From positions 1 through 23,030 of IMG/VR virus record IMGVR_UViG_3300045997_000225: 23,030 nucleotides of DNA. One strand, written 5' to 3'. A program made the position numbers and the translations under genes. Below the pieces are notes generated by a model. It searched no databases and had not been told where the DNA came from. It saw nothing but the letters and a program-made list of their open reading frames with translations. This document shows positions 2,163 through 17,754 of the stretch, one piece after another. Source of the DNA: a virus. How positions within the stretch are numbered: the stretch's first letter is position 1; each line of letters starts with the position of its first letter.

Positions 2163-3704
2163 CTACCCAATCATCGCAGAAACGTCGAATTCTGCTGCTT
2201 CGACCATGAATTCGCCTGTCGACATGACTGCCGCGACCAACGGGTCGATGCGCTGGGTGGCCTTGCTCTTGTCGAGTTTGCGGTTGCCTGCCGGGTCGCG
2301 CACAGAAATTGCATTGGCCGCAGCCATGTTCAACAGCGGGTGTGCACCGTGACGCAGCTTGCCCTGCAACAACAACGTCTCGAAGTGCTCCACGCGCGGG
2401 CTCATGGACTGGTAGCCTTGACCGACTTCGATCCATTGGGCGGACTCCAACGCATGTTGACGAGCGGCGGCACCTTGCGCCTCTTTGATGCGCCAGCGGT
2501 CGAAATGCACAGAAGCGACCTCGATTTCCAGCTCTGTCAGCTTCATGCGCAACCACTCGAACAACCAGTCGTAGTCCAGCGTCGCACCCGGCACCGCGAC
2601 CAACTGGCCGCTCTTGACCCAAGTCGTGTACGGAGCCTTGTCGCGCAGCTCGCGCTCTTTCATACCGATTTGTGGCGCGAACACAAACGGCAGCAGGTGA
2701 ACCGCGCCGTCAACGTCCTTGGCGCTGAGCACCGCAGCAGTCAAGTCGTTGCGCGACGACAAATCCAGCCCCAGCGCAACGCGCGCCCCGGAGCGGAACA
2801 CGGCCACATCTGGCGGCTCAGAGCAGCTCTTCCACACGCCGGGTGCAAGCCAGATCTGTTGCAAGCTCACCCGTTGGTTCAGCAGCAAGTTGCGCGTGGA
2901 CGCCTCCAGCGCCGGGATGCGCGCGGCTTGCTTCAACTGCTCTTCCAGATCTTTGCGGCTGCGGAACAAGTCCAGCGCCGGGTTGGCGGCCAACCACTGC
3001 TTCTCGTCCAACAGATCGCAATTCGGCTCTGCAGCGTACAGCTGGCAAACGGTGTGCGGATCTCCCGACCGCAAAGCGTCGTCAATGCGCACGCTCAGGA
3101 AGTCTGCGTCGGACGCGGCTTGTGTGCTGATCATGATGGTCAGCGGGTTTTCGTGAGCGCCGCTGGCCGTGAGACACGCCTCCAGGAAGGGCGAAGTCGG
3201 GCCGACCACTTGGCCGCACTCGTCGATGATCAGCAGCACCGGGGAAAGCCCGTGAGCGGTGGTGGCGTCAGCGGACAGCGCCCGGTACTCGACGTTGTCC
3301 TTCAGCCCGATGATGCGCTTGGCGGAGGGGACGATGCGGTACAACCCCTCCAGCTCTGGATTCAGGTGCAAGATCTTCACCGCGAGGTTGAAGACGAGCG
3401 CGGCTTGGTCGCGGCTATTGGCCGCAGACAGCACCTGCGAGTTGCGTATGCGCTCCGGGCCGATCGTGTGCGCCAACAACAAGCACGCGATCGTCACCGT
3501 CTTGGCGTTCTTGCGCGCCATGGACAATATTGCGTGCCGCGTCAGGTGCGGGTTGTCGTACACGGCGCGTATGAAGCGCAGCTGGAAGTCAGCGAGCTTG
3601 ATGGGCTTGCCGACCAACGCGCCCTCCGGCACGCGGCAATAAGTCTCGATGAACTTGATGACGCGGTCGGCGCGCGTGGGTTCACTCTTCTTGCGCGGCG
3701 GCAT
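2163..3704 (-). CDS. Terminase large subunit (TerL)
   Basis: The ATP-driven DNA packaging motor and nuclease, 513 residues from the chosen ATG. The ATPase domain shows a Walker A-like SMARKNAKTV (61-70, the RKNxKT form common in phage terminases), Walker B LLIIDE (157-162) with catalytic Glu162, and a coupling motif near STQA (193-196). The nuclease domain begins at ALGLDLSSRNDLTA, with metal-binding Asp314, and later acidic positions include HFDRW and RIDPLVAA. The frame stays open upstream to 3914, but that part overlaps the preceding gene and is low-complexity Arg/Ser/Pro, so the ATG at 3704 is preferred. Its Shine-Dalgarno is weak (AGAGAG); a good AAGGAG lies about 26 bases upstream, so a CTG start a few codons earlier is possible. 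It overlaps the small Cys-rich gene by 23 bases. Confidence 0.92.
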   Translation of the reverse strand: MPPRKKSEPTRADRVIKFIETYCRVPEGALVGKPIKLADFQLRFIRAVYDNPHLTRHAILSMARKNAKTVTIACLLLAHTIGPERIRNSQVLSAANSRDQAALVFNLAVKILHLNPELEGLYRIVPSAKRIIGLKDNVEYRALSADATTAHGLSPVLLIIDECGQVVGPTSPFLEACLTASGAHENPLTIMISTQAASDADFLSVRIDDALRSGDPHTVCQLYAAEPNCDLLDEKQWLAANPALDLFRSRKDLEEQLKQAARIPALEASTRNLLLNQRVSLQQIWLAPGVWKSCSEPPDVAVFRSGARVALGLDLSSRNDLTAAVLSAKDVDGAVHLLPFVFAPQIGMKERELRDKAPYTTWVKSGQLVAVPGATLDYDWLFEWLRMKLTELEIEVASVHFDRWRIKEAQGAAARQHALESAQWIEVGQGYQSMSPRVEHFETLLLQGKLRHGAHPLLNMAAANAISVRDPAGNRKLDKSKATQRIDPLVAAVMSTGEFMVEAAEFDVSAMIG

Positions 3705-3957
3705 CTTCGCTCTCTGCAGCAGCAGTTTCTCCTTTTGCGCGGGCCACCCTGTACGGGTTGTAGGCCCACACGGGGCAGATCTCCGACCGGCAAGTCGCGG
3801 CCTCTTCTGCGTCGAAGTTGCAACAGTCGAAGCACTTGGCCTTGATGGCGGCGCGCGGCGAGAGCTCGCCCTTGTAGGCGCGCTCCAGCATGGTGCGTCG
3901 CCGCTCGGGCACACGAGCGACTTGGGCGGCTTGGCGCGGGGTGAGTTGTGTGGTCAA
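3682..3957 (-). CDS. Small Cys-rich phage protein next to TerL
   Basis: A 91-residue protein that I cannot assign a function. It has a compact cysteine cluster: KCFDCCNFD followed by TCRSEICPVWAYNPYR, with about five Cys in 25 residues. This suggests metal binding or a small treble-clef-like fold, and similar short Cys-rich proteins occur beside terminase genes in other siphophages. The start is TTG (3957-3955), preceded by AAGGAG at good spacing and overlapping the TerS stop as TTGA, so translational coupling is likely. Its acidic Ala/Glu tail overlaps the first 23 bases of TerL in another frame. Tight packing within the terminase operon supports it as a real gene that may help packaging; that role is inference. 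Confidence 0.75.
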   Translation of the reverse strand: MTTQLTPRQAAQVARVPERRRTMLERAYKGELSPRAAIKAKCFDCCNFDAEEAATCRSEICPVWAYNPYRVARAKGETAAAESEDAAAQEE

Positions 3958-4409
3958 ATCAGGTCTCCTTCAGAAGCGCGCTCCAGCACCTTGCGGGTGG
4001 CACGAGCAGCGCTGTTGCGTTTTTGCTGGTCTTGGTTGGTCAAGCCGCGCGCCGCCGCGCCCAGCCCGATCAGTTTGTTGAGCTGCACCACCGTGGAGGT
4101 GATTTGCAACAACATTGTGCCGAGCGGGTTCGTCACCAGCGTGCCGCGATCGTTGCGGGTGGTGTAGCCTTCAGCGTCCAGCCCCTCGTTCACCTCCTCT
4201 ATGCGGCGGTAACAGATTGCGAGGTTGGCCGCGACGCGCAGGTCGTTTTCGCTCCACGTGGCCGGTTCACGGTGGTCGACGATGCTCTTGAAGATTTTCT
4301 GTTCGTGCTCCGTCAGCGGAATTGGCGACACCGCAGGCGTCATCACGCCGCGTGCCAAGTCCTTGTAGCCGTCAGAGCTGGTGAGTTTGGTGCGATTACG
4401 GGCAGCCAT
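3954..4409 (-). CDS. Terminase small subunit (TerS)
   Basis: A 151-residue protein that would recognise phage DNA and present it to TerL. The identification rests on position (directly upstream of TerL with one small gene between), length, and a helical P27-like pattern: an N-terminal basic segment, LTEHEQKIFKSIVDH, a helix with NDLRVAANLAICYRRIEE, then TNPLGTMLLQITSTVVQLNKLIGL, which resembles the oligomerisation helix ahead of the C-terminal tail in this family. The start is the ATG at 4409 with AAGGAG at good spacing; the longer open frame to 4739 crosses a Pro/Arg-rich stretch opposite the HNH gene and is rejected. The stop overlaps the next gene by 4 bases. Confidence 0.8.
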   Translation of the reverse strand: MAARNRTKLTSSDGYKDLARGVMTPAVSPIPLTEHEQKIFKSIVDHREPATWSENDLRVAANLAICYRRIEEVNEGLDAEGYTTRNDRGTLVTNPLGTMLLQITSTVVQLNKLIGLGAAARGLTNQDQQKRNSAARATRKVLERASEGDLI

Positions 4410-4525
4410 GAGAAACTCCTTGGTTGGTTTGGTCGGGGAATGAGCGTAGGCCACTGACCGGGTGGGATACGCGGGAAAACGGGGGCGGGTGGTGGAACGG
4501 TAGCATTGGAGGCTCGGCTGGGCGT

Positions 4526-9441: not shown

Positions 9442-9993
9442 TGGCCAGCAAATGGCCATATAACCACGAGCCAATCAATGGGCCATAGAGCCACGACGCG
9501 CGGCCAGACGGGGTCAGCCTCAGCGCCGCGCCGCTGGCCAGGCAACGCCCATATAACCAAGACCCACGAGATGGCCCAGGAAGCCACAACGACCGGCGAG
9601 ACGGGGTCGGCCCCAGCCGCGTGGCAACGCCAGGCAACGCCCATATAACCAAGGCCCAATATATGGCCCAGGAAGCCACAACGACCGGCGAGACGGGGTC
9701 GCGCACAAATATCTCGTTTGCCCAAAAATCGCCCATATAACCACGACCAATTATATGGGCCAGGAAGCCGCGCCGAGCGGCGAGACGGGGGTGGCCCCAG
9801 AAACCCTTTGCGCCCAGGAAACGCCCATTAAACCAAGGCCCAATATATGGGCCAGGAAGCCAAGGCACGCGGCGAGACGGGGTTGCCCCAGATATCGCGG
9901 GCAGGCCAGGAAACGCCCATTAAACCAATACCCAATATATGGGCCAGGAAGCCACCGCGACCGGCGAGACGGGGTAGGCCTCAGTTCTTGCGT
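9442..9993. repeat. Six tandem 92-bp repeats with internal dyads
   Basis: The ATATAA/ATTAAA anchor occurs at 9458, 9551, 9643, 9735, 9827 and 9919, and the GAGACGGGG anchor at 9504 (CAGACGGGG in the first unit), 9598, 9690, 9782, 9874 and 9966, so the period is 92 bases (93-94 between the first two units). Each unit carries GCCCAT(A/T)(T/A)AA, then ATATGG(G)CC, GGAAGCCA, a CGGCGAGACGGGG block and GCCCCAG or a variant. The unit at 9731-9760 holds a perfect 10-bp inverted repeat with a 10-base loop; units at 9838 and 9930 contain palindromic CCCAATATATGGG. The later units are more alike and the first is the most diverged. Because 92 is not a multiple of 3, the open minus-strand frames across it do not encode a repeated peptide. 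Likely non-coding: origin iterons, a partition site or a structured RNA array. Confidence 0.9.
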
Positions 9994-10134
9994 TTGGCCA
10001 AATTTGGGCGCGAGCCGCCGCCTGCCCGCGTGCCGCCTAGGGCGCAAAAACGCCGGATGGCCATAGGCGTGTTGTAAGGCCCAAATATGCCAACTCAGCG
10101 CGCGCCCACACGAGTGCACCAGGTGCTCGGCGAT

Positions 10135-10189: not shown

Positions 10190-10274
10190 AAAATTTTCCG
10201 CCCGTACCCCTGCACCAGCCCAAATTATCTCCGGAATTCGTCCAAAATATATTTTTGAATTTTCGTCAAAACGC

Positions 10275-10961: not shown

Positions 10962-10997
10962 CCGCCGCGCCCATCACCCCGGTGCGGCGGATTTTTT
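10962..10997 (+). terminator. Terminator-like hairpin after first rightward gene
   Basis: CCGCCGC (10962-10968) pairs with GCGGCGG (10984-10990) around a 15-base loop, followed by A and six T. It lies six bases after the stop codon and runs straight into the leader of the next gene, so it probably attenuates rather than ends transcription. Confidence 0.65.
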
Positions 10998-11024
10998 GAA
11001 CAACCACAGAAAGTGAGAAACCCC

Positions 11025-11219
11025 GTGAACAACGTCAAGCTGAATTTGCCCCTTGAGCTCGCGCAGGAAATGGACGTCATTTTGCGCCGCCGCGCTGAGC
11101 ATTTGTCTGAGTGCATCGCCAGCCGCGCGCGTGACCCGCATTTGGTGGACATTGACCGCCGCCAGCTGGCGCGTGCCCGTGAGCTTCAGGCGTTGTTGGC
11201 GGTGGCCTTGGGCCGCTGA
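11025..11219 (+). CDS. Small helical protein, unknown function
   Basis: A 64-residue protein, charged and helical: LPLELAQEMDVILRRRAEHLSE, then HLVDIDRRQLARARELQALLAVALG. It could be a small DNA-binding or antitoxin-like helical protein, but no family is recognised. The start is GTG (11025) behind the repeated leader with AGAAAGTGA at 11008. An earlier in-frame GTG (11013) lies inside the ribosome-site repeat and is rejected, because the repeat is conserved before other genes where it is not translated. The gene is flanked by two copies of the intergenic module. Confidence 0.65.
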   Translation: MNNVKLNLPLELAQEMDVILRRRAEHLSECIASRARDPHLVDIDRRQLARARELQALLAVALGR

Positions 11220-11240
11220 CCCCCGCGCGGCGGATTTTTT
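11212..11240 (+). terminator. Weak terminator-like hairpin in intergenic module
   Basis: GCCGC (11212-11216) pairs with GCGGC (11227-11231), followed by GGA and six T (11235-11240). The left arm overlaps the end of the preceding gene. This is a degraded version of the hairpin at 10962. Confidence 0.45.
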
Positions 11241-11267
11241 GACCAAACATAGAAAGTGAGAAACCCC

Positions 11268-11567
11268 ATGAAACTCAGTTGCATTGAACGCGCCAACGAC
11301 ATCAAACTTGTCGACCGCGCGGCTGGCCTTTGGGAATCCGGCGATTGGTGCGTGTCGGCCGACAATGCCGCCGCCCTTGTCGGTGGACAAATATTCTTCC
11401 ACAGCGCTTGGGCGGCGGAAAGCCACCACGGAGGAAATGTCGTGGCGTGGCGCGCTTGCGACCAAGACCCGCGTCGCGTCGTTTTCCAGTACACATTTGA
11501 CGCGGCTTGCGTTGGCGTCAAATTCGCGCGTGGCGCGTCCCGGCAGGCGGTGGCGTTTTGGCGCTGA
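11268..11567 (+). CDS. Small protein, unknown function
   Basis: A 99-residue protein that I do not recognise. It has several Trp and Cys residues and alternating hydrophobic strands (IFFHSAWAAESHHGGNVVAW, RRVVFQYTFDAACVGVKF), so a small mixed alpha-beta fold is likely. The ATG at 11268 sits at the end of a full intergenic module (T-run, TTGACCAA, AGAAAGTGA at 11251). It lies between other genes built the same way. No signal peptide, membrane segment or metal motif is visible. Confidence 0.65.
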   Translation: MKLSCIERANDIKLVDRAAGLWESGDWCVSADNAAALVGGQIFFHSAWAAESHHGGNVVAWRACDQDPRRVVFQYTFDAACVGVKFARGASRQAVAFWR

Positions 11568-11624
11568 CCCCGCTGACCCCCGTGCCCCGAATTTTTTGAC
11601 CAAACACAGAAAGTGAGAAACCCC

Positions 11625-11882
11625 ATGAACATTCCCTTCACCGCGCGGCTGCAAGCCGCCCTGACCGCAGCCGGTTATGTCCACGAATTTTTTCCCGCGC
11701 AGTGGGAAGATGTCGGCGGGCCGGAAAGCGGGCCACAGCTGGCGGGCCACAACGATTTCCACGTGTGGTCGCTGGCCGTGAACCCCGGTGCCCTCCAGCA
11801 AGTTGTGGTCGTGGACGGCCACATTGTTGAGGTGGAAATGGCCCCGGACTTCGAGGGTGTGTACGCGCCCGAGCCCCGCTGA
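11625..11882 (+). CDS. Small acidic protein, unknown function
   Basis: An 85-residue acidic protein, unknown. It begins MNIPFTARLQAALTAAGYVHEF and then has strands HVWSLAVNPGALQQVVVVDGH and IVEVEMAPDFEGVY, suggesting a small beta-sheet protein. The ATG at 11625 follows AGAAAGTGA (11608) in a standard copy of the intergenic module, whose leader is nearly identical to that of the preceding gene. No known domain is recognised. Confidence 0.65.
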   Translation: MNIPFTARLQAALTAAGYVHEFFPAQWEDVGGPESGPQLAGHNDFHVWSLAVNPGALQQVVVVDGHIVEVEMAPDFEGVYAPEPR

Positions 11883-11930
11883 CCCCCGTGCCCCGAGTTT
11901 TTTGATCAACCACAGAAAGTGAAAACCGAA

Positions 11931-12176
11931 ATGACCGAACAGATTCAAGCTTGCGAGCGGCTCGTGAAGTGCGCCGAGTTTTACGCATCAATGTTGGACG
12001 ACGACTCCGCCTTGGTGGCGGCGTCCGACGCCAGGACGCTGCTCACAGAAAACCCCGCGCTCAAGTACGCCGCCGCGCGCGCATACGTCAGCCTCACACA
12101 TTCCCTGGGCGTGTTCCACCCCGAGACGCGCGACGCCAAGTCTGTGGCGCGCTCGTTGGGCGCAAACCCCCGCTGA
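11931..12176 (+). CDS. Small helical protein, unknown function
   Basis: An 81-residue protein, mostly helical (IQACERLVKCAEFYASMLDD, ALKYAAARAYVSLTHSLGVF). It has two Cys near the N-terminus but no metal motif. The ATG at 11931 follows AGAAAGTGA (11914) in the intergenic module with TTGATCAA; the in-frame GTG at 11919 is part of that module and is not used as the start. Function unknown. Confidence 0.65.
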   Translation: MTEQIQACERLVKCAEFYASMLDDDSALVAASDARTLLTENPALKYAAARAYVSLTHSLGVFHPETRDAKSVARSLGANPR

Positions 12177-12224
12177 CCCGGTGCCCCGAATTTTTTGATC
12201 AACCAACAGAAAGTGAAACCAGAA

Positions 12225-12536
12225 ATGAAAACCCAAATCGTCACCCACACCATCACATACGCCGCGCAAATGAACGGCGGCGACGTTGTGTCGTTCCAAA
12301 TTGCGCTGATGAACCTTGAGCCGGAAACGCTGGCGTGGGCGCTGCGCGGTGAAGAAGCGATGCGCTGTGGCCTTGCACCGGCTGAAGCCGCCCCCTACGA
12401 AATCTTGTCGCTGCACGTCGACTGGACGGTGTGTGAAGCCGCCTTCATCGCGCGCACCACCGGCTGCGGGCCGAAACCGGACGACAACTTCATGATCGCT
12501 GGCGTTGTCAGCTGCCTTTCCCCCTTGACCCGGTAA
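12225..12536 (+). CDS. Small protein, unknown function
   Basis: A 103-residue protein with no recognised family. It has an N-terminal strand TQIVTHTITYAAQ, a helix SFQIALMNLEPETLAWALRGEEA, and a second half with several Cys (CGLAPAEAAP, VDWTVCEAAF, TTGCGPK, VVSCLS). The ATG at 12225 follows AGAAAGTGA (12208) in a standard module. It could be an early host-interaction protein like other small genes in such blocks; this is only inference. Confidence 0.6.
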   Translation: MKTQIVTHTITYAAQMNGGDVVSFQIALMNLEPETLAWALRGEEAMRCGLAPAEAAPYEILSLHVDWTVCEAAFIARTTGCGPKPDDNFMIAGVVSCLSPLTR

Positions 12537-12575
12537 GCCGGATTTTTTCCTCAACTCACAGAAAGACCCTTCATC

Positions 12576-13145
12576 ATGTTTGACATCAACACCGCCATCA
12601 ACACCGCCATCAACGCAGCCGTCGCCGAGGCGGTCGGCCCACTTCTGTCGCGCATTGCGGCGCTGGAAGCCGCCGCCCCCAAATCCGGCGTGGCCGTACA
12701 ACCCGCCGCCACCGAGATTGCCGCTGCGGTTGTCGCCGCCGCCGCGACGGAAATTCCCGCCATGGCGCAGCGGGCCATTGACGACGCCATCGCCGTCACC
12801 AATGTCGCGGCGCTTGTGGAAAGCGTTGTTCAGGCGTACGACCTTCAGCCGCTGATGGACGCCGCGCTCGACACAATCGCGCTCGACGAGCTTGTGGAAA
12901 ACGCCATTGAAGCCGCCAACATCAGCGACCAAGTTGAGTCTGTCGTCAACGAAGTTGTGAACGGGCTCGACCTCGAAGGCAAAGTGGAAAGCGCCATCGA
13001 CCACGCCAACATTGAGCGCGCCGTCGAGCGCGCCATTGACGACGCCGACGTTGTTGGCAACGTTCTGGGCGTGATTGATGTTCGCGCCGAGGTCGTCAAG
13101 GCGTTTGCCGCTGGCGAATTGGTGCTGACCCTGAAAGCCGCCTAA
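12576..13145 (+). CDS. Ala/Val-rich acidic helical repeat protein
   Basis: A 189-residue protein of very simple composition, rich in Ala, Val, Glu and Asp. Residues ~80-165 contain degenerate repeats of the type VESVV..A.DL and VE.AI..ANI, giving amphipathic helices with a regular hydrophobic face, so it is probably an elongated coiled-coil or helical-bundle protein. Residues 1-30 (INTAINTAINAAVAEAV) are also repetitive. There is no signal peptide or membrane segment. The ATG at 12576 follows AGAAAG at 12560, in a leader that lacks the usual TGA. The function is unknown; a structural or scaffold-like role is possible. Confidence 0.65.
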   Translation: MFDINTAINTAINAAVAEAVGPLLSRIAALEAAAPKSGVAVQPAATEIAAAVVAAAATEIPAMAQRAIDDAIAVTNVAALVESVVQAYDLQPLMDAALDTIALDELVENAIEAANISDQVESVVNEVVNGLDLEGKVESAIDHANIERAVERAIDDADVVGNVLGVIDVRAEVVKAFAAGELVLTLKAA

Positions 13146-13150
13146 CGCAC

Positions 13151-13271
13151 CCAAATCGCCACCGGGCGGCGTGGGTGGGGTTGACCCCTCACCGCTGCGC
13201 CGAGCCCACAGAGCCGACCGACGCCAGTGTTTGCGCGGCTCCCCCGGCAACCCGGTGGCACGAGTTTTTTT
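13151..13271 (+). ncRNA. Structured intergenic element, copy 1
   Basis: This 121-base element is related to 14511-14631. The outer stem CCACCGGG (13159-13166) with CCCGGTGG (13251-13258) is perfect. Inside are a G-rich/C-rich hairpin (GGTGGGG with CCCCTCACC) and a second hairpin of GAGCC (13202-13206) with GGCTC (13237-13241). It ends in CACGAG and seven T. It could be a small RNA with its own terminator, or an elaborate attenuator before the secreted-protein gene. Confidence 0.55.
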
Positions 13272-13297
13272 GCCAAACCACAGAAAGTGAGAATATC

Positions 13298-13747
13298 GTG
13301 AAAGTTTCCAAAATCGTCCTGGCCCTTGTTTCCGCCACCCTTGCCTCTGCCGCGATGGCGAGCGGATTTGTCGAATTCAAAACCGCCAGCGGCGGCAAGA
13401 TGGTCGTGTACAACGTCACGATCACCCCCGCAATCCTCAACGAGAACAAAGACGTTCAGTTTGATCTGGTCATCGAACACCGCCCCCTCAATGGCAGCCC
13501 TTTGCGCCAAGAACACACCGCCTCTTGCACAGAGAGCGGCGGGCGGTATGCAGTGATCAACGACAAAGGCGAGATCGTCGGCGCACAAAAGATCTGGGTC
13601 GCAGACGGCCAGACCGTGGCAGACAAAATCTTCAGCCACGCATGCGTCGTCTCTGTCGAAAAGTTTGAGGCCATGGCTGCGCGCCAACAACGCAGCGCCC
13701 CGAGCGGCTACACCCCCGGCAGCAAGCCCGGCAAGTTTGCCCTTTGA
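13298..13747 (+). CDS. Secreted or periplasmic small protein
   Basis: A 149-residue protein with a clear Sec signal peptide: Lys at 2 and 5, a hydrophobic core VLALVSATLASAA, and a likely cleavage after AMA, before SG (about residue 22). The mature part is beta-rich (KMVVYNVTITPAILN, VQFDLVIEHRP), has two Cys (in TASCTES and SHACVV) that could form a disulfide, and ends in a Gly/Ser/Pro-rich tail. The start GTG (13298) follows AGAAAGTGA (13282). Exported phage proteins in such accessory blocks can alter the host envelope or block superinfection; this role is inference. Confidence 0.7.
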   Translation: MKVSKIVLALVSATLASAAMASGFVEFKTASGGKMVVYNVTITPAILNENKDVQFDLVIEHRPLNGSPLRQEHTASCTESGGRYAVINDKGEIVGAQKIWVADGQTVADKIFSHACVVSVEKFEAMAARQQRSAPSGYTPGSKPGKFAL

Positions 13748-13772
13748 CCTAACCACAGAAAGTGAGCACATC

Positions 13773-14507
13773 ATGAACGAAGAAAAGATCATCAGCCGCG
13801 TGCGCAAGATGTTGGCTTTGGCCGCAGACGAACGTGCCTCTGACGGCGAGCGCGACAACGCCATGCGCATGGCGCACAATCTCCTGGCCAAGCACAACTT
13901 GACGCTCGCGCAGGCCAGCGACACGCCGGAAGAAGCCCGCGACCGCATTGTGTTCGTCGACCGCAACGACCCATGGGCGCGGCAGGTGGCGTACGGCATC
14001 GCACAACTGTTCTTCTGCAAGTACTACTTCATCGGGTACACAGACAAGACCCTCTGTCACCACTTCTTCATCGGCAAGGAAAGCAACGCGGTGACCGCTC
14101 AGCTTGTGGCCGAACACGCCATCAAGTCTGTGCGCAAAGAAGCCGCCGCCTACGTGCGCGACGGTGGGCCAGGCACGCCACGCGATTTCTGCAAGGGCGC
14201 GACCGCCCGCATTTACCAGCGGTGTACCGAATTGCGCCGCGCGGCTGAAGCTGAGTCCGCCGCCGCACCGACCCAGACATCCACCGGCACCGCGCTTGTG
14301 TTGGCCAGCTTGTACAAGACGGAGGAAAACGCCAACGACGCTTTCCTCGCACAGCTCGGCCTCAACTTGCGCGAGGGCAAGAGCCGCGAGCGCTCTGTCA
14401 GCAGCATCACCGCGTTGCGCGCAGGTGCGGCGTATGGCGACAAGGTGCACTTGGGCCGGTCGATCGGCACCGACGCGCGCAGCGACCGCGTAGCGTTGGC
14501 TGCATGA
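13773..14507 (+). CDS. DUF2786-family protein
   Basis: A 244-residue protein. The N-terminal ~40 residues (ISRVRKMLALAADERA followed by AMRMAHNLLAKHNLTLAQA) match the DUF2786 pattern, a domain found in phage and bacterial proteins whose role is not established. The remainder (WARQVAYGIAQLFFCKYYF, HHFFIGKESNAVTAQLVAEHAIKS, FCKGATARIYQRC) is the C-terminal domain that usually accompanies it. The ATG at 13773 follows AGAAAGTGA (13757). The leader is shorter than usual and lacks the T-run, with only 25 bases to the preceding gene. Function unknown. Confidence 0.8.
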   Translation: MNEEKIISRVRKMLALAADERASDGERDNAMRMAHNLLAKHNLTLAQASDTPEEARDRIVFVDRNDPWARQVAYGIAQLFFCKYYFIGYTDKTLCHHFFIGKESNAVTAQLVAEHAIKSVRKEAAAYVRDGGPGTPRDFCKGATARIYQRCTELRRAAEAESAAAPTQTSTGTALVLASLYKTEENANDAFLAQLGLNLREGKSRERSVSSITALRAGAAYGDKVHLGRSIGTDARSDRVALAA

Positions 14508-14510
14508 GGG

Positions 14511-14631
14511 CAAATCGCCACCGGGCGGCGTGGGTGGGGGTAGCCCCCCAGCCAACGCGCCGAGCACACAGAGCCCGTCCCCTGGAGGTGTTCTGCTCGG
14601 CCCCCCGGCAACCCGGTGGCACGAGTTTTTT
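14511..14631 (+). ncRNA. Structured intergenic element, copy 2
   Basis: Second copy of the element at 13151. The outer stem CCACCGGG (14518-14525) with CCCGGTGG (14612-14619) is kept exactly. An inner hairpin GGGGG-tag-CCCCC and a hairpin CCGAGC (about 14560) with GCTCGG (14595-14600) are also present, followed by CACGAG and six T. The middle differs in sequence from copy 1 but keeps hairpins at the same places, which suggests selection for structure. Confidence 0.55.
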
Positions 14632-14659
14632 GAATTAACCACAGAAAGTGAAATCGCAA

Positions 14660-14845
14660 ATGAACCCCGCATTCAAAGTCATCATCGGCGCAATCGTCGT
14701 CATTGTGTCCCTCGTCGTCGCTGAAGACCTTTACACCGCGCATCAGCGCAGCCAAGTCAACACCACGCTCAAAGGCCTCGACAAGGCCACGTGCGACGCC
14801 TGGAGGTCGATGGGCGTGCGCAACCACCCGACGTGCGACCGCTGA
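14660..14845 (+). CDS. Small single-pass membrane protein
   Basis: A 61-residue protein with one N-terminal membrane segment (FKVIIGAIVVIVSLVVAEDL, residues ~5-24) and a short soluble tail with two Cys (ATCDAWRSMG, HPTCDR), which probably faces the periplasm. The pattern could also be an uncleaved signal anchor. The ATG at 14660 follows AGAAAGTGA (14643). It is the last gene before promoter P2. The role is unknown; membrane-located phage small proteins are often involved in lysis or superinfection exclusion. Confidence 0.6.
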   Translation: MNPAFKVIIGAIVVIVSLVVAEDLYTAHQRSQVNTTLKGLDKATCDAWRSMGVRNHPTCDR

Positions 14846-14862
14846 CATTATCCTCAAACCCC

Positions 14863-14891
14863 TTGCCTTTTGGCGAAAATTCAGGGATAAT
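14863..14891 (+). promoter_or_regulatory. Rightward promoter P2 (methyltransferase operon)
   Basis: TTGCCT (14863-14868), a 17-base spacer containing TTGGCGAAAATT, and GATAAT (14886-14891). About 45 bases of leader with AGAAAG at 14913 precede the ATG at 14928. The core is identical to P3 from the CCTCAAACCCC upstream bases through the -10, but the downstream leader differs and lacks the hairpins. Confidence 0.8.
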
Positions 14892-14927
14892 TAGGGCTCC
14901 CAACCACCCCTTAGAAAGAAGTCAGAA

Positions 14928-16235
14928 ATGAAAAACGACACCCCAATCCGCTTGCTCCGAGAAGCTTCTCACAACCACAAGTACCGCGTTGTGGCGGGCT
15001 GCGACTGTGTGTACTGCGGCACCCCCGTCAAGGCTGTGAACCAAGGTTCTGCCGGAGACCATGTGCCGCCGCTGGCTGTGTTGGACGCAAACTTCGGCGT
15101 CGCTGTGGGCGACATGGAAACTGTTCCTTGCTGCTCAGAGTGCAACACACTGCTGGGCGCCATCCCGCTGGTCACCGTCGCGCAGCGCCGCGCGCACGTC
15201 CTCGCCGTCCGTCCTCTCGTCGGCAAGACAGAAGCCCAGATCATCGCGGGCGCCATGTACAACGCCAACATCAATGAAGGCTTCAAACGTGGCGAAGGTC
15301 AAGTCGACACGCCGGACGTGGTCGCAGGACAGATCCTAGACAAGTTGCAACTGCTAGGTTCTTTTTGTGACCCTGCCTGCGGAGACGGCTCTTTCGTGCG
15401 CATGCAAATCCGTCGGCTGGTGGAGGCTGGCGTAGACAACGCGTGGATCGAAGCGAACGTGCGCGGCTACGACAACGACGTAGAGATGGCCGCAGAAGCT
15501 GTGCGACGGCTGCGTCGCGAATTTCCAAGTCTGGATGGCAAGGCGATCTTCAAACAACAGGACATCTTCACAATGAAAGACCACTTCACCACCATCATTA
15601 TGAACCCGCCTTGGAACTTGAAGACGGGCGGCAAGACGGTCGAGCGCAACACCTGGCGCAAGTTTGCCGACGCGGCGCTGAAGCTCGCCGAGACGGTCGT
15701 CGTTGTGGCGCCAATGAGCGCGCGGCAAGCCGGCAAAAGGGTGCTTGTCGAAGCTGTCCGGTTCGAAGGTGTCGAGCACGACGGCTGCGCGGTTGTTTGG
15801 TCGGAGGACGCGGCGCAGGACTTCAGCGCTTTCCCGAAGTTTGATTTGCACTTTCTGTCTCAAGTCGTCGGCGGCGACGCGGTGATGTCTGAAAAGGGCA
15901 AGCGAGACATACATTCCGTGGAGCTTGAGAATTGGCGCGGCGGCGCTCCTTACTGGGCAACACCAAGAGCTGCCGCGACTTACAAGGTGGGCGAGCCAAA
16001 AGGGTTGTTTCGGCTCAACGCTTCTGGAAAGCACGAATTTGCCTGGTCCAAGTCTCTCCGTCCGGGGAACGTGGCCTATGGCGAGCAGGCTGAGTTCGAG
16101 CGGTTCTGCGCCTATGCGTCGTCTGAAGCCGGTGTGCGTGACTTGAGGGCGCTTGCAGACAGAGCGAACATGGGATTTATAAATCTCAACAAGGCCACCC
16201 TCAACGCCGCGTTCTCCAGCCGGGTGACGAAATGA
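14928..16235 (+). CDS. HNH nuclease-N6-adenine methyltransferase fusion (gene A)
   Basis: A 435-residue protein with two joined parts. Residues ~20-80 form an HNH-like zinc domain: CVYC (27-30), GDHVPPLA with the Asp44-His45 pair, and CSECN (69-73). Residues ~125-435 form an N6-adenine DNA methyltransferase in the usual gamma-like motif order: motif X (TPDVV, 128-132), AdoMet-binding motif I (DPACGDGS, 148-155), motif II (YDND, 181-184), Asp212 of motif III, and catalytic motif IV NPPW (226-229). Codons for residues 223-306 are part of a 253-bp perfect repeat found again in gene B. The ATG has AGAAAG upstream. The stop overlaps the gene B start by 4 bases. It may methylate phage DNA and, if the HNH part is active, cut unmodified DNA. 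Confidence 0.85.
   Translation: MKNDTPIRLLREASHNHKYRVVAGCDCVYCGTPVKAVNQGSAGDHVPPLAVLDANFGVAVGDMETVPCCSECNTLLGAIPLVTVAQRRAHVLAVRPLVGKTEAQIIAGAMYNANINEGFKRGEGQVDTPDVVAGQILDKLQLLGSFCDPACGDGSFVRMQIRRLVEAGVDNAWIEANVRGYDNDVEMAAEAVRRLRREFPSLDGKAIFKQQDIFTMKDHFTTIIMNPPWNLKTGGKTVERNTWRKFADAALKLAETVVVVAPMSARQAGKRVLVEAVRFEGVEHDGCAVVWSEDAAQDFSAFPKFDLHFLSQVVGGDAVMSEKGKRDIHSVELENWRGGAPYWATPRAAATYKVGEPKGLFRLNASGKHEFAWSKSLRPGNVAYGEQAEFERFCAYASSEAGVRDLRALADRANMGFINLNKATLNAAFSSRVTK
15593..15845 (+). repeat. 253-bp direct repeat, copy 1 (inside gene A)
   Basis: By base-by-base reading this is identical to 16243-16495, with an offset of 650. It covers motif IV NPPW through the FPKFD codons. The frames of the two genes correspond, so recombination between copies would join gene A to the gene B end in frame. 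Confidence 0.97.
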
Positions 16236-16882
16236 TGTCGGTCATCATTATGAACCCGCCTTGGAACTTGAAGACGGGCGGCAAGACGGTCGAGCGCAAC
16301 ACCTGGCGCAAGTTTGCCGACGCGGCGCTGAAGCTCGCCGAGACGGTCGTCGTTGTGGCGCCAATGAGCGCGCGGCAAGCCGGCAAAAGGGTGCTTGTCG
16401 AAGCTGTCCGGTTCGAAGGTGTCGAGCACGACGGCTGCGCGGTTGTTTGGTCGGAGGACGCGGCGCAGGACTTCAGCGCTTTCCCGAAGTTTGATGTGGC
16501 GATTGATCTGTTCAAAGACGGCAAATCAATCCGTTCTGACGACAAGAAGTCGGCCACCACAACCGTCGCTGTGCACAACTGGTCTGGCGCGCGTTTCTGG
16601 GCGACGCCGAGCTACGCCGAGCGTTGTGGCGTCAACGAAGCCAAGCTGATGCTCCGGCTCAAGGCAGCGGGCAATCACGACGCAGAATTCGGCAAAGGGC
16701 TCCGCGCAATGTGTTACGTCGTCACAGGCCCAGACGCAAAAGCGTTTCACGCCTACACAGAAACGCCAGAAGGGCTCGCGGCTTTGATTGAGTTGTCCGG
16801 CGGCAAGAACGGCGGCTTTCTGAACCCGAAGCCTGCTGTGCTCAACGCCGCATTTTCCGCGCGCCACAAGGAACCAAAATGA
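16232..16882 (+). CDS. Catalytic half of an adenine methyltransferase (gene B)
   Basis: A 216-residue protein that begins at the catalytic motif: MMSVIIMNPPWNLK, so NPPW lies at residues 8-11. It has no AdoMet-binding motif I. Residues 5-88 are encoded by DNA identical to part of gene A. The rest is a diverged relative of the gene A C-terminus: HNWSGARFWATP matches ENWRGGAPYWATP, and VLNAAFSARHKE matches TLNAAFSSRVTK. It overlaps gene A by ATGA and gene C by ATGA, so all three should be translated together. Alone it cannot bind AdoMet in the normal way. It may pair with the product of gene C, which supplies motifs X to III, or with gene A. Confidence 0.85.
   Translation: MMSVIIMNPPWNLKTGGKTVERNTWRKFADAALKLAETVVVVAPMSARQAGKRVLVEAVRFEGVEHDGCAVVWSEDAAQDFSAFPKFDVAIDLFKDGKSIRSDDKKSATTTVAVHNWSGARFWATPSYAERCGVNEAKLMLRLKAAGNHDAEFGKGLRAMCYVVTGPDAKAFHAYTETPEGLAALIELSGGKNGGFLNPKPAVLNAAFSARHKEPK
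16243..16495 (+). repeat. 253-bp direct repeat, copy 2 (inside gene B)
   Basis: Identical to 15593-15845. The sequence diverges abruptly at both edges: before the shared CATCATTA, and after TTGAT. Confidence 0.97.
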
Positions 16883-17241
16883 GCACTCACAACGACGCCG
16901 CCCGCGACGCAAAGTACCGCGACCCGTCGGTCGGTTCCGTTCACACGCCCATGGCTATGAGCCGCGAGATTGTCGCCGCAATGGACGCCGCGCTCTTCGC
17001 TCCGGGCAAGACGTTCCTCGACCCTGCGTGCGGCTCAGGCAATTTGCTGGTGGCCGTAGCCGAGCGGCGGCTGAGCCTAGGGGTGACCCCCAGCGACGTC
17101 GCCGCCACGACATTCGGCGTCGACATCAATGCCGAGGCCGTGTCGGAAGCGCTCGACCGGCTGAGCCTGCTCCTAGGCGAGGAAAACCGCTCGACAATGG
17201 CGGCGAACTTTGATGTGCGGGACTGGCTGACAACCAATTAA
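16879..17241 (+). CDS. AdoMet-binding half of an adenine methyltransferase (gene C)
   Basis: A 120-residue protein with the N-terminal half of an N6-adenine methyltransferase: motif X (VHTPMAMSREIV, 21-32), motif I (FLDPACGSGNLL, 46-57), motif II (TTFGVDIN, 77-84), and a motif III-like FDVRDWL (111-117). It stops three residues later, exactly where the NPPW motif should follow. The missing part is what gene B encodes, and gene B lies upstream, so the two halves are in reversed order. The stop TAA is clean and promoter P3 follows after 15 bases. It is a diverged relative of the gene A N-terminal half without the HNH part. It is probably a subunit of a split enzyme; decay is the alternative, but intact frames and ATGA coupling argue against it. 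Confidence 0.85.
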   Translation: MSTHNDAARDAKYRDPSVGSVHTPMAMSREIVAAMDAALFAPGKTFLDPACGSGNLLVAVAERRLSLGVTPSDVAATTFGVDINAEAVSEALDRLSLLLGEENRSTMAANFDVRDWLTTN

Positions 17242-17256
17242 TTTCCCTCAAACCCC

Positions 17257-17285
17257 TTGCCTTTTGGCGAAAATTCAGGGATAAT
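17257..17285 (+). promoter_or_regulatory. Rightward promoter P3
   Basis: TTGCCT (17257-17262), a 17-base spacer with TTGGCGAAAATT, and GATAAT (17280-17285). Transcription should begin near 17291. Confidence 0.8.
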
Positions 17286-17290
17286 TAAAT

Positions 17291-17316
17291 CCCCTTCGGG
17301 GGGCGGGAAAAACCCC
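17291..17316 (+). promoter_or_regulatory. 5' leader hairpins of P3 transcript
   Basis: CCCCTTCGGGG (17291-17301) forms a UUCG tetraloop hairpin right at the predicted transcript start. It is followed by GGG (17305-17307), AAAAA, CCCC, a short second hairpin. No T-run follows, so these are not terminators; 5' end protection or a leader switch is possible. Confidence 0.6.
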
Positions 17317-17343
17317 TTCAACAACCTAGAAAGTGAGCGAGAA

Positions 17344-17628
17344 ATGAAACTGGAATTTGTCTCTGTGGCGCAAGCGACGCCGCTGGATTACGAGGATGTG
17401 CTTGTCGCGGTCTCCGTGCCTGCGCTGGGCACAGAGGTGCGCTTTGAAGTTGCGTTTTACGAATGCACCGCGCAGCGTTGGATGCGCGCAGCGCGCGGCA
17501 CCTATGAAGTGCTGGACCATGTGTTGCTGGACCCGGAAGTCGCGTCCGCAGGCAACGCGCGCGCCCCAGCGACCGTCGTGGGCTGGGCCGAGTTGCCCGG
17601 TGTGACTGCGGAAGAACTGTTCAACTGA
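17344..17628 (+). CDS. Small protein, unknown function
   Basis: A 94-residue acidic protein, unknown. It is strand-rich (MKLEFVSVAQATPLDYED, LVAVSVPALGTEVRFEVAFY) and then has MRAARGTYEVLDHVLLDPE and a VVGWAELPGVTAEELF end. No metal or membrane motif is visible. The ATG at 17344 follows AGAAAGTGA (17328). It is the first gene after P3 and its leader hairpins, so it is probably strongly expressed. Confidence 0.65.
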   Translation: MKLEFVSVAQATPLDYEDVLVAVSVPALGTEVRFEVAFYECTAQRWMRAARGTYEVLDHVLLDPEVASAGNARAPATVVGWAELPGVTAEELFN

Positions 17629-17646
17629 AACAACCAAGGAACAACC

Positions 17647-17754
17647 ATGCTAGCAATCATCGCCTTCATCCTGCTGGGAATGTGGCTCGGCTTTTGGCCG
17701 GCACTCGGCATCACAGTGGCCTTCGTCGTCGTCGTGGCGATGATGGACGCCTAA
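17647..17754 (+). CDS. Tiny membrane peptide
   Basis: A 35-residue peptide that is almost entirely hydrophobic: MLAIIAFILLGMWLGFWPAL, then ITVAFVVVVAMMDA. It could form a hairpin of two short membrane segments around the FWP turn. AAGGA lies 6 bases upstream of the ATG, and the gene fills the gap between its neighbours, with the next leader after it. It resembles the size of small phage membrane peptides and of toxin-like peptides, but no family can be named. Confidence 0.55.
   Translation: MLAIIAFILLGMWLGFWPALGITVAFVVVVAMMDA

Follow-up and report, generated by a model that had tools for sequence, protein, structure and literature searches.

A Perfect Repeat within a Putative Modular Methyltransferase Locus of a Viral Contig Suggests Recent Recombination of a Catalytic Core

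Introduction

One 23,030-nt contig of the IMG/VR virus collection (IMGVR_UViG_3300045997_000225, the whole of which is referred to as the window) contains three overlapping genes, A, B, and C, that by their sequences are parts of DNA methyltransferases. Genes A and B share a block of 253 nt without a single difference and diverge strongly beyond it. Which evolutionary event left an identical block inside two otherwise different genes, and what could it mean for the encoded enzymes? The explanation favored here, with a probability of roughly 0.6, is that A-B-C is a modular methyltransferase locus in which gene A would encode a single-chain enzyme, genes B and C would encode a heterodimer split into two halves, and a recent recombination event made the catalytic cores of A and B identical.

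Results and Discussion

An Identical Block inside Two Divergent Genes

An exact-repeat search of the window identified two copies of the 253-nt block (table 1) in direct orientation, with a spacing of 650 nt and a mismatch at the next base on either side. The longest exact direct repeat in 50 dinucleotide-preserving shuffles of the window was 14.8 nt on average and 18 nt at most, and the second-longest in the real sequence is 42 nt. The perfect repeat reported in the original prediction, which was made from the sequence alone, is therefore real. Both genes read the block in one and the same frame, and all of its approximately 58 synonymous sites are identical in the two copies, which sets an upper limit (rule of three) of ∼1.2% divergence per site and 5% per synonymous site. 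When one 650-nt unit is removed and the flanks are joined at the repeat, the computed product is an open frame of 434 amino acids, confirming that a deletion form would be in frame, as had been proposed.

The edges of the block had been described as sharp. This description fits the right edge, which is located at the border between the catalytic core and the target-recognition domain (TRD): the proteins encoded by A and B past this point are only 38% identical (45/118, BLASTP E = 5e-19), in agreement with the claim that the sequences diverge strongly while the proteins remain related. The left edge lies 11 nt past the start of gene B and 84 codons ahead of the right edge, and it is merely the start of that gene. 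The upstream half of gene A has no counterpart in gene B before it, and since gene B begins there and contains nothing upstream that could match A, a sharp left edge needs no special cause.

A low-confidence AlphaFold2 model of gene A places four core strands (beta4–beta7; residues 222–225, 256–262, 272–275, and 286–292) within the block, which ends ∼14 residues later at residue 306, the position at which the model confidence drops and the TRD starts. We take the block to be the later half of the catalytic core, comprising motifs IV to VIII as placed by alignment, and its limits in the model fit motif IV on the left and the core/TRD border on the right. The G+C content at third codon positions is 0.80 in the block, near that of gene C (0.81) and above those of the S-adenosylmethionine-binding (SAM) half of A (0.66), the TRD of A (0.67), and the TRD of B (0.69); with so few codons, the difference is no more than a hint and does not point to a particular donor.

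Gene A as a Putative Single-Chain Enzyme and Genes B and C as Putative Complementary Halves

The order of the parts within the locus is a SAM half with an HNH-like region in front and a catalytic/TRD half in gene A, a catalytic/TRD half in gene B, and a SAM half in gene C, and the A/B and B/C gene pairs overlap by 4 nt each. Gene A contains motif I, then motif IV (NPP[YFW], hereafter NPPx), and then the TRD in one chain. This gamma order fits an N6-adenine methyltransferase, and adenine methylation is predicted likewise. The two Pfam matches of gene A fall just under the cut-off (N6_Mtase, 18.3 bits with a cut-off of 20.4, E = 0.0016; UPF0020, E = 0.0012), the protein matches the PHROG 799 DNA methyltransferase (E = 3.4e-07), and residues 121–271 align with array-type methyltransferases of the related loci described below. 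The HNH-like region matches a PHROG HNH endonuclease (E = 0.0037) and Pfam HNH_5 (E = 0.017), both below the cut-off.

Gene B starts seven residues ahead of NPPW (MMSVIIMNPPW) and lacks motif I, such that the B-C pair carries motif IV and the TRD in one gene and motif I in the neighboring gene. Gene C, the complementary SAM half beside B, was overlooked in the original prediction. It is the only one of the three genes with a Pfam match above the cut-off (N6_Mtase, 24.7 bits vs. 20.4) and it also matches PHROG 11371 (E = 3.4e-12, profile positions 291–376 of 383). The SAM halves of A and C are paralogous (32% identity, E = 4.6e-6).

Split, Fused, and Arrayed Half Genes in Related Loci

Single-sequence searches with A and B found no relatives in viral contigs or phage records, a single-sequence search with gene A found none in GTDB genomes, and a blastn search with positions 14400–17700 found none among phages. 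Gene C recovered eight loci and an alignment of C homologues 80, together 82 C-type loci (L003–L084), and the DUF932 gene used as query yielded a further 22 related loci (L085–L106). The C-type counts given here cover L003–L084 and leave out L085–L106 and L107–L183, and open reading frames (ORFs) were counted by simple rules (plus strand, NPPx pattern, and length limits).

The split organization is the most frequent one. A motif-I ORF without NPPx adjoins an NPPx ORF in 56 out of 82 loci, with the NPPx ORF upstream in 52 (as in B-C), downstream in three, and on both sides in one. Fused genes have the order IV-I in eight of the 82 loci and I-IV in one. The native half genes of the relatives open with MFSVII or MKFDVV ahead of NPPx, similar to the start of gene B. 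Fused proteins are found in the cultured Aeromonas phages Aswh_1 and PX29, and Klebsiella phage KpV477 (L185, positions 2523–4456) carries a split set consisting of an NPPY protein, a second ORF, and a motif-I protein. All of these genes are annotated as hypothetical proteins with the exception of the KpV477 SAM half, which is annotated as a DNA methyltransferase. The N-terminus of the KpV477 NPPY protein is presumably GIY-YIG-like; nuclease-like domains are joined to such methyltransferases in this protein and in gene A, with its HNH-like region.

The separate B-type and C-type halves both align with the fused proteins. A model of the fused protein of L011 (predicted local distance difference test score, pLDDT, 84.4; predicted template-modeling score 0.81) had CamA in the best rows of a Foldseek search, with PglX and M.TaqI lower. 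In VIA-align, residues 1–399 matched MboIIA in the top row (Z = 12.6, root-mean-square deviation [rmsd] 3.1, 157 aligned residues) and residues 1–273 matched residues 97–410 of M.TaqI (Z = 10.7, rmsd 4.4, 254 aligned). Because the model aligns with both enzymes, a chain with motif IV and the TRD ahead of motif I is predicted to fold as one methyltransferase, and hence the fused relatives appear to have their core in permuted order and a TaqI-like TRD region. Gene order and the fused relatives support the idea that B and C act as one split enzyme.

NPPx half genes also occur in arrays. After removal of exact duplicates, the NPPx ORFs form 97 runs, 85 with a single ORF and 12 with two or more (one of these 12 is the window, and L116 and L117 are nearly identical to each other). 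Five NPPx ORFs are present in the arrays of L107 and L108, and three in those of L116/L117 and L007. In L003 (5980–9664), one SAM half precedes four overlapping NPPY halves with a mutual identity of only ∼30%, and in L107 (3311–9817), five cassettes with near-identical SAM halves and divergent catalytic/TRD halves precede a C-type gene. Within arrays, protein identity is 66–98% ahead of NPPx and ∼19–58% after it (L107, four out of five cassettes in L108, L116/L117, L114, L119, and L133). The repeated DNA takes in the upstream promoter-like region in L061/L107 and L017/L108. Compared with these arrays, the window shows the reverse combination: its constant part lies after motif IV and not before it.

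Exchange of Catalytic/TRD Halves at Motif IV

The end of sequence similarity was located in 35 pairs of distinct genes with a best 5′ stretch of at least 85% identity (the whole 5′ part is sometimes less similar). Similarity ends between −15 and +30 nt of NPP in 21 pairs and elsewhere in five, and the whole gene is alike in nine; the pairs are not phylogenetically independent, and 10 of the 35 come from the L107 array. In a wider, redundant comparison (116 distinct proteins, 160 genes), 229 out of 421 similarity ends are located 0–29 nt after NPP, and these 229 ends fall in six linked groups (37, 5, 2, 2, 2, and 2).

The cleanest swap is found between L157 and L179, which are 99.5% identical before NPP, show 41% amino acid identity after it, and are again 97.5% identical in the 600 nt downstream. 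L173 and L180 share 92.3% identity before NPP, 40% after, and 91.2% downstream, and L127 and L133 show 99.7% identity along the 8333 nt that precede the seam, then 23% protein identity and unlike sequences downstream. Since flanks that are 97–99.7% identical exclude fast drift as a source of 23–41% protein identity, the catalytic/TRD half was exchanged as a unit. Less neat cases are L119/L126 (24% after NPP, 69% overall in the 5′ part) and L041/L077 (29% after NPP, 82% in the 5′ part), and L114 and L116 (∼92% identical) differ by the gain or loss of one entire cassette. Judged from these alignments, motif IV is the usual seam in the relatives, with the SAM half as the constant part. Conserved flanks around an exchanged specificity part are seen in related loci; no close relative of the window itself was found.

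Origin of the Identical Core

The proposed explanation treats A-B-C as a phage locus that encodes modular DNA amino-methyltransferases resembling M.TaqI and CamA. Gene A would encode a SAM half followed by a catalytic/TRD half in a single chain, and genes B and C would together supply a second enzyme whose two halves are separated at motif IV, stand in permuted gene order, and presumably act as a heterodimer. A recent recombination event would have made A and B identical over the initial 253 nt of their catalytic halves, either as a conversion tract or through duplication of the half with subsequent replacement of one TRD. The original prediction had suggested a recent conversion or exchange that keeps the catalytic block uniform while the C-termini differ. 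The block itself, the gene A model, and the exchanges in the relatives agree with this suggestion; what has to be revised is the view of gene B, which is only half an enzyme and is presumably paired with gene C.

Several observations weigh against the proposed explanation. Relatives vary from motif IV onward and not from the core/TRD border, and none of the relatives examined retained the exact IV–VIII block with a change in the TRD only, a combination that was found in the window alone; identity limited to this block in related phages was not recovered. A tblastn search with A, B, and C against all loci fetched by then gave no relative of B, and no Pfam family was found for gene B. Confidence in the AlphaFold2 model of gene A is low (mean pLDDT 56.8): only its core is usable, and the HNH-like part and the TRD are too weak. 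Finally, 17 of the 82 C-type loci, some of them near contig edges, have neither a fused gene nor an NPPx ORF beside C by the counting rules given above.

Gene conversion and duplication with TRD replacement are indistinguishable from one genome. A tandem duplication of the catalytic/TRD half that was followed by the replacement of one TRD from another phage would act in the direction opposite to a conversion of the core. This order of events is the strongest of the alternatives and nonetheless rather unlikely: the relatives do replace TRD or catalytic halves and the TRDs of A and B are homologous, but the replacements begin at motif IV instead of the core/TRD border, and the start of gene B resembles that of native half genes. 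Because gene B begins like these genes, it is suggested to be older than the block identity. That gene B is a non-functional remnant of a duplication, persisting only through its recency, is improbable. Gene B lacks motif I, a match to a hidden Markov model family, and relatives in single-sequence searches, as might a remnant, but its frame is open, it overlaps A and C by 4 nt in an arrangement shared with the half genes of other phages, and its TRD has diverged and is still related to that of A.

An assembly effect, in which copies that differ at a few sites or in the number of 650-nt units were merged by a short-read assembler, is given slightly less credit still. The source is a single metagenome virus contig and the repeat probably exceeds the length of short reads. 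However, a chimera of two strains crosses the block once, and a simple chimera of this kind is unlikely because two passages need real DNA that joins the end of gene A to the block; the frame, start, and overlaps of gene B also look normal. Protein-level constraint on the catalytic core without any recombination has a negligible probability and was rejected in its pure form: motif IV is conserved, but constraint on the protein alone is insufficient to explain identity at all of the ∼58 synonymous sites, and in neighboring cassettes of the relatives the region that corresponds to the block retains only ∼22–58% protein identity.

Consequences for Methylation Specificity and Relation to Known Systems

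Because one catalytic core is joined to two different TRDs, two methylation specificities are probable under the favored explanation of a modular locus with a recently equalized core. A and B-C probably methylate different sites, which would shield the DNA of the phage against restriction by its host. In addition, the 650-nt in-frame deletion that would place the TRD of B on A is predicted to use the repeat as its substrate, and the repeat may promote further change at the locus. A degenerate pattern for the block start matched no second viral record, and no deletion form was seen in viral contigs. The halves exchanged among the related loci probably allow phages to alter or extend the methylation that shields them from restriction enzymes of bacteria. 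A broader and more tentative idea, favored less than the explanation of the window itself, is that these loci form a combinatorial kit. A common SAM half, shared either by sequence or as a subunit, would be combined with changing catalytic/TRD halves at a seam in motif IV, arrays would provide several specificities, and repeats would let populations delete, add, or switch specificities faster than host restriction changes. If the halves are interchangeable, phages would have a simple route to altering which restriction systems they evade, with a logic like that of bacterial specificity-gene shuffling. In these loci, one could test directly whether a single SAM-binding subunit serves several catalytic/TRD subunits, and the seam at motif IV suggests a natural joining point of methyltransferase specificities.

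The multispecific C5-methyltransferases of Bacillus phages combine one catalytic core with several TRDs in one chain, with C5 chemistry. The exchange of methyltransferase domains is already known, and this locus adds a variant of that theme. Target-recognition domains move within the Type I and Type III systems of Helicobacter pylori, for Type III at conserved methyltransferase motifs, as described in one report (PMC3983042). The similarity is that specificity parts shift between methyltransferase genes, here with breaks at motif IV; the differences are that the present loci belong to phages, that a whole catalytic/TRD half is exchanged, that arrays and split genes occur, and that a catalytic core is shared in the window. 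In lactococcal phage phi50, a functional methylase domain was likewise gained by recombination, with plasmid pTR2030 as the partner (Hill 1991, as cited in PMC4190342); the citing text mentions neither an array nor an internal repeat.

Regarding architecture, gamma-order N6-adenine methyltransferases of the M.TaqI, CamA, and M.BseCI type are the best structural matches, with residues 97–410 of M.TaqI corresponding to the catalytic/TRD half of a fused relative, and B-C differs from them in being split and in having its halves in reverse order. Circularly permuted adenine methylases are mentioned for jumbo phages in PMC7824862. The permuted (beta order) MboIIA has the order IV-TRD-I that is also found in B-C and the fused relatives, whereas the window distributes it over two genes and has an M.TaqI-like TRD part. 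Among the naturally bisected and the circularly permuted C5-methyltransferases, two polypeptides can complement each other, and duplication with truncation has been proposed as the route to permutation (PMC5944983); the split in the window differs in that it affects an amino-methyltransferase and falls at motif IV. Searches of the open-access literature, which misses most subscription papers and preprints, turned up no account of comparable phage arrays.

Other Features of the Window

The coordinates of all features are listed in table 1. Phase variation of the HsdS type by inverted repeats was considered and rejected, as the 253-nt repeat is direct; only two inverted-repeat pairs of 20–23 nt have an arm within 14928–17241, with partners 1.7 and 8.7 kb away.

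Table 1. Positions of the Repeats, Genes, and Gene Parts in the Window
Feature	Position	Strand	Basis
First repeat copy, within gene A, from motif IV to slightly past the last core strand	15593..15845	+	Exact match, model strands
Repeat copy 2, in gene B	16243..16495	+	Exact match
Gene A, 435 aa: HNH-like region, SAM half (DPACGDG), catalytic half (NPPW), C-terminal target-recognition part (putative)	14928..16235	+	ORF
HNH-like region at the N-terminus of gene A (CxxC ... GDHVPP ... CxxCN), weak match	14928..15242	+	
Target-recognition part of gene A	15846..16232	+	38% identity with its gene B counterpart
Gene B, 216 aa: catalytic/TRD half only (putative)	16232..16882	+	ORF; alignment to half genes in related loci
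Target-recognition part of gene B	16496..16879	+	BLASTP vs. A
Gene C, 120 aa: restricted to the SAM-binding half (DPACGSG), stops ahead of motif IV	16879..17241	+	ORF, Pfam, PHROG
42-nt exact repeat, copy 1, ahead of gene A; contains a sigma-70-like promoter match (TTGCCT-17-GATAAT)	14852..14893	+	
42-nt promoter-like repeat, copy 2, directly after gene C	17246..17287	+	

The two 42-nt promoter-like copies flank the A-B-C operon, and recombination between them would delete the entire operon. Diverged copies are located near 10268 and 19299, and similar elements are present ahead of other genes. An imperfect tandem repeat of six 92-nt units (∼68–77% alike) occupies positions 9442–10002, where no convincing gene was found. 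A recurring spacer of ∼60 nt (a T-run, then ACAGAAAGTGA in most copies) is present ahead of many small genes at 10970–14664, 18909, and 21391, and resembles a common regulatory or ribosome-binding leader.
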